From contig CAIKMZ010000084.1 in assembly GCA_903828665.1 (NCBI GenBank), positions 50,074 to 114,073 on the forward strand: 64,000 nt of DNA, in the 5' to 3' direction. The notes under the pieces are model-generated. The model was given only the letters and a program-made list of their open reading frames with translations. It had not been told where the DNA came from and ran no database searches. The stretch is from an uncultured beta proteobacterium (GTDB lineage: Bacteria > Pseudomonadota > Gammaproteobacteria > Burkholderiales > Burkholderiaceae_C). Below are positions 34,371 through 37,983 of the stretch, one piece after another; within the stretch, counting starts at the first letter, position 1, and the number at the start of each line of letters is the position of its first letter. Position numbers and translations under genes: made by a program.

Positions 34371-35426
34371 TCAAACTACCAACGGCTCTTCCTGCATCGC
34401 TTCCATCTGCTCTTCGAGCATCTGCACTTGGCCCTGCCAATAATCGCTGGAGCCGAACCAGGGGAAGTTGATGGGAAAGGTCGGGTCGCTCCAGCGCCGC
34501 GCCAACCAGGCGCTGTAGTGGATCAGGCGCAGCGTGCGCAGCGGCTCGATCAGCGCGAGTTCGCGCCGGTCAAATTCGCGGAACTGCTCGTAGCCGTCGA
34601 CCAGCGCTCCGAGCTGGCGCGTGCGTTGGCTGCGGTCGCCGCTGAGCAGCATCCAAAGGTCCTGCACTGCCGGGCCCGTGCGCGCGTCATCCAGATCGAC
34701 AAAATGCGGCCCCGGCCCCAAGCTGGCATGCGACTCCAGCGGCGTCCACAGGATATTGCCGGGGTGGCAATCGCCATGCAGGCGCAGGCGCCGGATCGGT
34801 GCGCTGTCCCGGTCCTGCTCGCCTGCAACACCGCTCACGCTCGGGTGGTGGGCGATCAGGTCAAGCGCCTGCTGCGAAGCCTTGGCCCACGCTGACTGGA
34901 CGTCGAGCGGCACCTGATCATGGGCCAGCAGCCAGTCGCGCGAATCGACACCAAAGCTTTGCAGGTCCAACGCCGGCCGGTGCGCGAAAGGCCGCGCCGC
35001 GCCGACCGTGTGAATGCGCGCCAGAAAGCGGCCGATCCACTCCAGCACGTCGGGGTCATCTAGCTCGGGCGCGCGCCCGCCGCGGCTCGGGCTGACGCTG
35101 AAGGCAAAGCCGCCGAAATGATGCAGCGTGCCGCCGTTGAGCGTCAGCGGCCCGACCACCGGGATCTCGGCCGCCATCAACTCGGCCGAGAACGCGTGCT
35201 CCTCCAGAATCTGCGCCTCGCTCCAGCGATCGGGCCGGTAGAACTTGGCGATCACCGCATCACCCTCCTCCAGATGCAACTGATAGACGCGGTTCTCGTA
35301 GGAACTCAGGGCCAGCTGGCGCCCGTCGCCAAACAGCCCAACGCTGGCCAGCGCGTCCATGACCAGATCGGGCGTGAGGGACTCGAACGCGTGCCGCGCC
35401 GGTGCAGAGGAAGAATCAATGACCAT
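34371..35426 (-). CDS. srkA: Stress response Ser/Thr kinase SrkA (YihE/RdoA)
   Basis: YENRVYQLHLEEGDAVIAKFYRPDRWSEAQILEEH, LHGDCHPGNILW, FVDLDDARTGPAVQDLWML. Confidence 0.92.
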   Translation of the reverse strand: MVIDSSSAPARHAFESLTPDLVMDALASVGLFGDGRQLALSSYENRVYQLHLEEGDAVIAKFYRPDRWSEAQILEEHAFSAELMAAEIPVVGPLTLNGGTLHHFGGFAFSVSPSRGGRAPELDDPDVLEWIGRFLARIHTVGAARPFAHRPALDLQSFGVDSRDWLLAHDQVPLDVQSAWAKASQQALDLIAHHPSVSGVAGEQDRDSAPIRRLRLHGDCHPGNILWTPLESHASLGPGPHFVDLDDARTGPAVQDLWMLLSGDRSQRTRQLGALVDGYEQFREFDRRELALIEPLRTLRLIHYSAWLARRWSDPTFPINFPWFGSSDYWQGQVQMLEEQMEAMQEEPLVV

Positions 35427-35448
35427 GCGCGCATTGTCGCGCTTATGT

Positions 35449-37983
35449 TCAGATATTACTGTTGGCGCGGACTTCTTCAATCGTGGTCATGCCGCTGAGC
35501 ACCTTGAGGATGCCGTCCTGGCGCAAGGTGCGCATGAACCCGTTCTGCATACCCTCGAACTGCAACTGCTCGGGCCGGCCACCGGTCTGGATCAGATGGC
35601 GCAGGCCTGGTGTGACCAGCAGAAGTTCATGCATGCCGAGCCGTCCGTGCAAGCCGGTGTTCTGGCAGTGAGTACATCCGGGCGCGCTGTAGCGCGTCAG
35701 GTGTCCGTCATAGCCGAAGCCCGCCAGCCACTCCTCACGCACCACCGCGCGATCCGGTCGCAATGCGTCCGGGTAGGAATGCAGGAAGTCGTCCAGCAAT
35801 TCGTCGACAAAGGCGTCGTCGGCCACCTCGGATGTTCGGCATTCGGTGCACAGGCGGCGCACCAGGCGCTGCGCCAGCACCGCCAGCAGCGAGTCGGCGA
35901 AGTTGAACGGATCCATGCCCATGTCGATCAGCCGGACCACGGTCTCGGGTGCGCTGTTGGTGTGCAGCGTGGACAGCACCATGTGCCCCGTGAGCGAGGC
36001 CTCGATGGCAATCTGGGCGGTTTCCTTGTCCCGGATTTCACCGACCATGATGATGTCGGGGTCGGCGCGCAGGAAGGAGCGCAGCGCCTTTGCGAAAGTC
36101 CAGTCGATCTTCGGGTTGACCTGCACCTGGCGCAGGTCCGGCTGCGTGATTTCGATCGGGTCCTCGGCCGTCCAGATCTTGCGCTGGGGCGTGTTCAGGT
36201 AGCCCAGGACCGAGTGCAGGGTCGTGGTCTTGCCCGAACCGGTCGGACCGACGCACAGGACCATGCCATAGGGCCGGCTGACAGCGGCGCGCAAATGCTT
36301 CAGATTGGGGCTCGTCAATCCGATCTTGTCCATCGGAATCGGCTTCGCCGAGGACAGCAGCCGCATCACGACATCTTCCATGCCGCCGTAGGTCGGGATC
36401 GTCGCAATGCGCAACTCCAGCCGGTGCCGGCTGGAGAACTTGGCGAATTCGATCTTGCCGTCCTGTGGTTTGCGCCGCTCCGAAATGTCGAGATCGGCCA
36501 TGATCTTCAGGCGCGCGGTCAGGGCCGCGCGATAGGTGTGCGGCAGCTCCAGGTAATGCGACAGCACGCCGTCCTTGCGGAAGCGGATGCGCGTCTTGAC
36601 GCGCCCGGGATGGGTTTCAACGTGGATGTCCGAAGCCCCGCGGTTATAGGCCTCGATGATCATGGTGTTGATCAGACGGACCAGCGAGTTGTCGGACTGC
36701 TCGATCGGGCGCTCGATCTCCTGCTCCTCTTCCTCGCGCTGTTGCAGTTCCATCGATTGCAGCAACTCGCTCGACGAGGTCTGCTCGATCGGTCCCGCCT
36801 CAACCGCCTGCCCGGCTGCGCTGCTCTTGCCGAACTGCAGGCCGAAACGCTCATAGATGTCGGCCAGGGACTGCTCGATCACATCCTCGTCGCCGAGCGT
36901 GGCGATGACGCGCGCCTCGACCATGAACTCGAGTTCTTCGAGCATGTCGCGTCGCGTCGGGTCGCCGCTCGCGACCACGAGCAGTTTGTCACGCAGCAAC
37001 AGCGGCAGCACGCCCAGCCGCTGCGCCGTTGCCAGCGGAACCTTGCGAAGCGCATCGGCCTCGACCGGGAAGCGGGTCACATCGACAACCGGGTAACCCA
37101 TCTTGCGGGCCAGTGCGGTATTGAGATCGCGCCGTGTCAGGAAGCCCATGTTGACCAGCAACTGACCCAGGGACACCGAACGCTCGGTCTTTTGCCGCTC
37201 CAGCGCCTGGTTGAGCTGGACCTCGTTGATATAGCCCAAGCCCACCAGGGCCTCGCCGACCCGTATCATCGGCATCTTCTCCTGCTGCTCGAGTGCCAGC
37301 ATCAACTGTTCGGTCGAAACAATGGCATTGCTCACCATCTGGTCGCCCAGTTTGCGGCTGCGCAGGGACTCCTGCTCGTCGGCCGCCTGCTCCACCTGCT
37401 GCGGCGTGACCGAACGCTGCTCGACCAGCATTTGTCCGATCAGCTCGCCATAGGTCACGCGCTCGTAGGCTTCGCGCGGGATGAAGGTGCGTTCGACACC
37501 GCCGCCGCCATCGAAGGGATGAAAGACAAAAAGACCGAAACTGGTTTCGACGTAACCGACGGTCTTGTCCGACACGACACTGCCATCGTGCAGATGCAGG
37601 TGGTAATCGACCGTGGGGCGATGGCCGAAGATGTCGGCAAAATCGGTGTCACTGACGCTCTCTTCCGGATAAAGCGGGGCTTTCAGCGTCAGGCGCCGAA
37701 ACTGCGAGAACTGAACCCGGCCCGGTGCCGTGCGGCTCGGCACGAAGATCATGACGGTCTTGTCGGCCGGCGTCAGCAGCGCCAGCCGGCAACTGCGGAC
37801 AACCCCCTTGAAGTCCTCGATCTCGCAGGCTTGCGGCTCGGTCCAGGGAACCGCTTCACTGAAAATGGCGAATGGCGGGCTGGGCCAATATAGACCGGTG
37901 AACTTGCTAATGGCAGCCGGTGAACCGGCGTCCGCGCCGTTGGTTGACAAGTGGTGCAGGGGATCGGAAGTTGAATCAGACAT
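35449..37983 (-). CDS. GspE/PilB-family secretion ATPase with N-terminal MshEN-like repeats
   Basis: 844 aa; Walker A GPTGSGKTTTLH, Walker B VGEIRDKETA, zinc motif CTEC...CTHC; long novel N-terminus. Confidence 0.92.
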   Translation of the reverse strand: MSDSTSDPLHHLSTNGADAGSPAAISKFTGLYWPSPPFAIFSEAVPWTEPQACEIEDFKGVVRSCRLALLTPADKTVMIFVPSRTAPGRVQFSQFRRLTLKAPLYPEESVSDTDFADIFGHRPTVDYHLHLHDGSVVSDKTVGYVETSFGLFVFHPFDGGGGVERTFIPREAYERVTYGELIGQMLVEQRSVTPQQVEQAADEQESLRSRKLGDQMVSNAIVSTEQLMLALEQQEKMPMIRVGEALVGLGYINEVQLNQALERQKTERSVSLGQLLVNMGFLTRRDLNTALARKMGYPVVDVTRFPVEADALRKVPLATAQRLGVLPLLLRDKLLVVASGDPTRRDMLEELEFMVEARVIATLGDEDVIEQSLADIYERFGLQFGKSSAAGQAVEAGPIEQTSSSELLQSMELQQREEEEQEIERPIEQSDNSLVRLINTMIIEAYNRGASDIHVETHPGRVKTRIRFRKDGVLSHYLELPHTYRAALTARLKIMADLDISERRKPQDGKIEFAKFSSRHRLELRIATIPTYGGMEDVVMRLLSSAKPIPMDKIGLTSPNLKHLRAAVSRPYGMVLCVGPTGSGKTTTLHSVLGYLNTPQRKIWTAEDPIEITQPDLRQVQVNPKIDWTFAKALRSFLRADPDIIMVGEIRDKETAQIAIEASLTGHMVLSTLHTNSAPETVVRLIDMGMDPFNFADSLLAVLAQRLVRRLCTECRTSEVADDAFVDELLDDFLHSYPDALRPDRAVVREEWLAGFGYDGHLTRYSAPGCTHCQNTGLHGRLGMHELLLVTPGLRHLIQTGGRPEQLQFEGMQNGFMRTLRQDGILKVLSGMTTIEEVRANSNI

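Follow-up and report, generated by a model that had tools for sequence, protein, structure and literature searches.

A GspE/PilB-type ATPase with four tandem MshEN motifs: a possible accessory type IV pilus motor with a candidate c-di-GMP site between its second and third motifs

Many bacteria carry genes for GspE/PilB-like ATPases that annotation assigns to no machine. One such gene lies in a stretch of 64,000 nucleotides from an uncultured beta proteobacterium (GCA_903828665.1, contig CAIKMZ010000084.1, positions 50,074 to 114,073; hereafter the window), and it raises two questions, namely, which machine its product might drive and whether a tandem array of MshEN motifs in this product could sense c-di-GMP. 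The coding sequence (35449..37983, minus strand), recognized from its open reading frame and profile matches, specifies a GspE/PilB-type traffic ATPase of 844 amino acid residues, in which an N-terminal beta domain is followed by four MshEN motifs, the MshEN C-subdomain and a T2SSE core. The core (residues 429-838; 35470..36699, minus strand) matches PF00437 with an E value of 9e-120 and contains Walker A (GPTGSGKTT, residues 579-587; 36223..36249, minus strand), Walker B (VGEIRD, residues 647-652; 36028..36045, minus strand), a His box and the two CxxC pairs of a presumed zinc tetracysteine (residues 712-715 and 770-773; 35839..35850 and 35665..35676, both minus strand), features that place it among the T2SSE ATPases. 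Judged by these catalytic motifs in the sequence, the ATPase core looks intact. An antisense open reading frame (35359-37893, plus strand), likewise of 844 amino acids, overlaps the gene; it looks spurious, a chance product of the high GC content.

A quick maximum-likelihood tree of ATPase cores placed the gene in a clade of 44 rows with an SH-aLRT value of 100, apart from PilB, MshE and GspE. The exact placement of this clade is unsure because its stem is long and the tree quick, and the same qualification applies to the observation that the gene did not group with the MshE ATPases. Against the family models, the protein scored 525.4 bits for PilB (TIGR02538; equivalog cut-off 675.65), 456.7 bits for GspE (TIGR02533; cut-off 630.25) and 403.8 bits for TfpB (NF053534; cut-off 850), below the cut-off each time. 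When 124 clade members were searched by pattern, Walker A was found in 122, Walker B in 112, the His box in 122 and two CxxC in 123. The genome that contains the window also encodes GspE, an MshE-type ATPase, a GspE-like ATPase, an ATPase with a GAF-like domain, PilT and PilU. The nearest paralogue by sequence in this genome (L005, G000:C78:28313-29548) is another long ATPase from this clade whose N-terminus looks GAF-like by eye; it is 44% identical to the window protein over residues 244-840 and has no MshEN motif above our own threshold.

The array occupies residues 181-294 (37102..37443, minus strand) and consists of four 24-residue motifs: R1 (residues 181-204, LIGQMLVEQRSVTPQQVEQAADEQ; 37372..37443), R2 (residues 211-234, KLGDQMVSNAIVSTEQLMLALEQQ; 37282..37353), R3 (residues 241-264, RVGEALVGLGYINEVQLNQALERQ; 37192..37263) and R4 (residues 271-294, SLGQLLVNMGFLTRRDLNTALARK; 37102..37173), all on the minus strand. 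An earlier note, made from the DNA sequence by a model, had described these motifs, and we found them as it quoted them, beginning at residues 181, 211, 241 and 271 with a period of exactly 30 residues and spacers of 6. The array was compared with chance by a simple position score of our own, with the highest-scoring window of each of 500 shuffled versions of the protein as reference. R1 to R4 scored 16, 22, 23 and 20.5, respectively, and the best windows of the shuffles had a median of 11, a 99th percentile of 16 and a maximum of 18. R2, R3 and R4 each exceeded all 500 shuffles; the score of R1 alone was not above every shuffle, and R1 stands in exact phase with the others and is conserved. 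The NCBIfam model NF053729 (c-di-GMP_motif), which spans two motifs and has a curated cut-off of 38 bits, matched R3-R4 (52.3 bits), R2-R3 (45.3 bits) and R1-R2 (40.6 bits), all above the cut-off, and gave a whole-protein score of 75.8 bits. A scan with PF05157 (MshEN), proposed as a check on the array, did give a match (48 bits; cut-off 23.1), but one covering only residues 295-378, which form the C-terminal subdomain (36850..37101, minus strand).

The earlier note considered R1 and R2 degenerate, in part for the loss of arginine at position 1. This does not hold for the arginine, as Leu181 and Lys211 are allowed by the extended consensus of R/K/L at that position (PMC11731258), and deviation is not confined to the first two motifs: R4 has Ser271 in place of Arg and Lys294 in place of Gln, neither of which had been listed. 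R1 of the window protein has Arg190 at position 10 and Ala201 at position 21.

The MshEN fold expected for this region was recovered in AlphaFold models, for which the best Foldseek match was 5htl (MshE with c-di-GMP), with a TM score of 0.72-0.73 over ~145 residues (5htl_A, normalized by MshE; E about 1e-8 to 1e-7); the models are predictions and the scores refer to whole models. The confidently modelled MshEN-like part is R3-R4 beside the C-subdomain. Model confidence was low for R1 in the first model and for R2 in the second, and in the first model the second helix of R1 runs into the first helix of R2. In PilF GSPII-A, an extended first helix hindered binding (PMC12002112). Upstream of the array, residues 33-178 (37450..37887, minus strand) are predicted to be all beta, with about 12 strands, mostly at a pLDDT of 93-97, falling to 63-74 around residues 103-121. 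Neither Pfam nor Foldseek gave a confident family or fold match for this region. Two candidate identities were rejected: Pfam returned DUF6982-like hits for 34 of 72 members (below threshold in the one member shown) but nothing for the window protein, and the Foldseek matches to Tudor/Sm-like folds were weak. A search for plasmid carriage of the N-terminal part produced no match.

The number of repeats was then surveyed, as had been suggested, in a sample of 151 sequences that includes the window's own copy. A chain of four motifs was found in 111 sequences, 106 of them distinct, a chain of two in 26 and a chain of three in 11; the step from one motif to the next was 30 residues in 366 of 381 steps in the relatives. 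On the evidence of these sequences, the four-motif array is a conserved trait of the family; the clade occurs through Burkholderiales and in other Gammaproteobacteria (in the GTDB sense). Members from Variovorax and Pseudacidovorax have lost R1-R2 or show them eroded, and the four shortest Variovorax members are also without the N-terminal domain. Natural versions of the protein devoid of both the N-terminal beta domain and R1-R2 are represented by L087-L090, from Variovorax. In L086 (contig JAEKKH010000115.1), the four-motif block is followed by a linker and then by a further block resembling R2, R3 and R4; apparently, the array of this protein was duplicated as a unit.

The statement that such motifs normally occur in twos proved too narrow. 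PMC5013675 mentions tandem (MshEN_N)2; GSPII-C of Thermus PilF, with three MshEN motifs, reportedly binds c-di-GMP (PMC11731258, PMC12002112); and some MshE-like ATPases elsewhere in the phylum have four. Because three- and four-motif arrays are known elsewhere, what sets the array described here apart is its layout and not its kind. The nearest known precedent for it is GSPII-C of Thermus thermophilus PilF, in which, as in the window protein, the C-subdomain and a T2SSE ATPase come after a motif array; our family profile aligned R2-R3-R4 and the C-subdomain colinearly with residues 301-479 of this protein. Thermus PilF differs from the window protein in serving as the principal pilus motor, in carrying two additional GSPII domains, in lacking a beta domain and in having spacers of 7 and 5 residues instead of 6 and 6. 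The third motif of GSPII-C starts with RLED in the PDB sequence and thus has Glu at position 3, so that the first two motifs, which are the counterparts of R2 and R3, are probably the likelier site. The 24-residue motif and the fold are shared with Vibrio cholerae MshE, which is a pilus ATPase, and with MshEN domains in general (PMC5013675), but MshE belongs to a separate clade, has no N-terminal beta domain and carries two motifs, which form a complete canonical pair with a 5-residue spacer. Four MshE-like proteins from other Pseudomonadota (L193, L197, L211 and L216) have four motifs before the T2SSE ATPase, as the window protein does; they differ from it in a spacing of 29-28-29, which is that of a duplicated canonical pair, in their placement among the MshE-like branches of the tree and in having no 150-residue N-terminal domain.

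Where c-di-GMP might bind was assessed from the residues that contact it in known structures. Each guanine bound by MshE contacts position 1 and leucines 17 and 21 of one motif and leucine 2 of the other, and Gln24 reaches the phosphate and ribose (PMC5013675, PMC11731258). We condensed the MshE and PilF structures into a contact rule of our own (R, K or L at position 1; hydrophobic residues at positions 2, 17 and 21; Gly at position 3; Gln at position 24) and applied it to the 106 distinct four-motif sequences. The complete contact set was present in R1 of 53 sequences, R2 of 98, R3 of 105 and R4 of none, and both motifs of a neighbouring pair were complete in 50 sequences for R1-R2, 98 for R2-R3 and 0 for R3-R4. 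The window protein has the full set in R2 and R3, and R2-R3 is its sole complete pair. The pair adjoining the C-subdomain, R3-R4, is never complete because R4 has a nearly fixed Pro at position 1 (98 of 106) and Lys at position 24 (105 of 106), positions occupied by Ser271 and Lys294 in the window protein. Of 19 two-motif PilB/MshE-like proteins, a comparison set not drawn at random, 17 had a complete usual pair. In an alignment of the 111 sequences, the columns of Gln264 and Lys294 were invariant, and those of Gln204 and Gln234 were conserved at 90% or more. The proposal of the earlier note that binding may be limited to repeats 3 and 4 is therefore unlikely. The counts favour R2-R3 as the c-di-GMP site. 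One c-di-GMP per subunit would lie between these motifs and not at the usual R3-R4 position beside the C-subdomain; Lys211 and Arg241 would cover the guanines, with Leu212/Val242, Leu227/231 and Leu257/261 beneath, and Gln234 and Gln264 would reach the ribose-phosphate.

We regard it as unlikely that c-di-GMP instead occupies the usual R3-R4 site through altered contacts, with Pro or Ser at position 1 of R4 covering the guanine and Lys24 directed to the phosphate. This placement agrees with the confident modelling of R3-R4 next to the C-subdomain, with the profile score of this pair, which is the highest of the three, and with the fact that Pro1 and Lys24 are fixed and not drifting. High-affinity PilF GSPII-B has Leu for Arg at position 1, and its single Gln24-to-Glu mutants still bind, with KD values of 460-950 nM (PMC11731258). 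By contrast, PilF GSPII-A, which has Ser at position 1 of motif II and His/Arg at both Gln positions, is non-binding, and putting the Ser back into a repaired construct abolished binding (PMC12002112); R4 also satisfied the contact rule nowhere, against the high counts for R2 and R3.

Unlikely too, and ranked next, is an array that binds no ligand and serves as a helical scaffold docking the ATPase on the inner-membrane platform or on another motor. Degenerate MshEN in XpsE has lost c-di-GMP binding (PMC5013675), and both the absence of a motif above threshold from L005 and the loss of R1-R2 in some relatives are consistent with such a role. However, the contact positions of R2 and R3 are nearly complete at overall identities of 30-50%, and Gln24 of R1-R3 occurs in every four-motif sequence counted, which speaks against this reading. 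Two or more c-di-GMP sites, for example at R1-R2 and R3-R4, in line with the multi-site sensing suggested by the earlier note, would read the ligand concentration in steps, but seem improbable: although three overlapping pairs exceed the c-di-GMP-motif cut-off and PilF binds two ligands, it does so at separate domains (PMC12002112), R1-R2 is complete in fewer than half of the sequences (50 of 106) and R3-R4 in none, R1 of the window protein carries Ala201 and Arg190, and sites with a motif in common would compete with each other. Improbable likewise is a switch of register in which ligand-free R3 packs with a non-binding R4, as in ordinary MshEN, until c-di-GMP pulls it to R2. This re-pairing would change the length of the N-terminal ring and its position on the motor; R4 would be retained as a competitor and not as a sensor, and its fixed Pro and Lys would be explained in this way.

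The gene order around the ATPase gene was examined for a partner machine. In the window, its neighbours are srkA and a gene for a GMC oxidoreductase (names assigned by the earlier note and by eye), and no pilin or secretin gene adjoins it; the description of the gene as an orphan is correct to this extent. Twelve related loci, however, have the gene directly upstream of an mshE-like gene, with mshG next in 10 of them. These 12 loci come from two collections and may include near-identical species (98% shared between the mshE genes of L226 and L019). Six fetched genome_contigs loci have the mshE-like gene directly downstream, with mshG next in 4, and in L019 and L029, which were inspected with family models, prepilin genes follow the mshE-like gene and mshG. 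Six further genomes were chosen because mshL lies within about 16 kb of the gene; in all six, mshE and mshG come immediately after the gene, and an mshA-like pilin gene and mshL lie further downstream, the pilin gene being right after mshG in five and the pilin match lying beyond mshL in L223.

Fourteen more distant loci, fetched from members of the class and order, had no msh genes nearby, and within the family the presence of mshL showed no association with the gene (19 of 51 genomes with the gene, 10 of 29 without it), so that a dependence on MSHA judged by gene presence was rejected. The partner may therefore differ by lineage. Dependence on PilQ was also set aside, as PilQ-type matches occurred in 60 of 60 genomes tested (above the cut-off in 55) and were thus uninformative. 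The genome that contains the window has an MSHA locus with mshL, prepilin-like genes, mshE and mshG on contig C49 (L222); the window gene is not near this locus and not in an msh operon. The same genome has no PilQ or PilM above the cut-off and encodes 31 GGDEF domains. As for srkA, it lies just downstream of the gene in the same orientation in the window, and it was rejected as a general partner, since among the fetched loci it adjoins the gene only in L011-L015 and L071 and is ~3 kb away in L046.

The reading that we prefer, and hold tentatively, is that this ATPase of a separate clade serves as an accessory motor of a type IV pilus, either of the MSHA type or related to it, and that it would work beside the pilus's own MshE and bind c-di-GMP between R2 and R3. 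A second extension motor has a precedent in Acinetobacter baylyi TfpB, which, like the window protein, is phylogenetically distinct and not encoded with pilC (PMC8213720); unlike TfpB, the window protein (404 bits) falls below the cut-off of the TfpB model. In an accessory motor of this kind, the ligand would change the seating of the N-terminal ring on the ATPase ring or on the inner-membrane platform, and the motor would be turned on or off by the c-di-GMP level of the cell. From the conserved sensor layout of the clade, a defined binding site can be predicted and, for some lineages, also a defined partner pilus. If this is true, MSHA-type pili in those lineages would have two c-di-GMP-responsive motors, and the prediction of MshEN sites should weigh upstream motif pairs, beyond the pair beside the C-subdomain.
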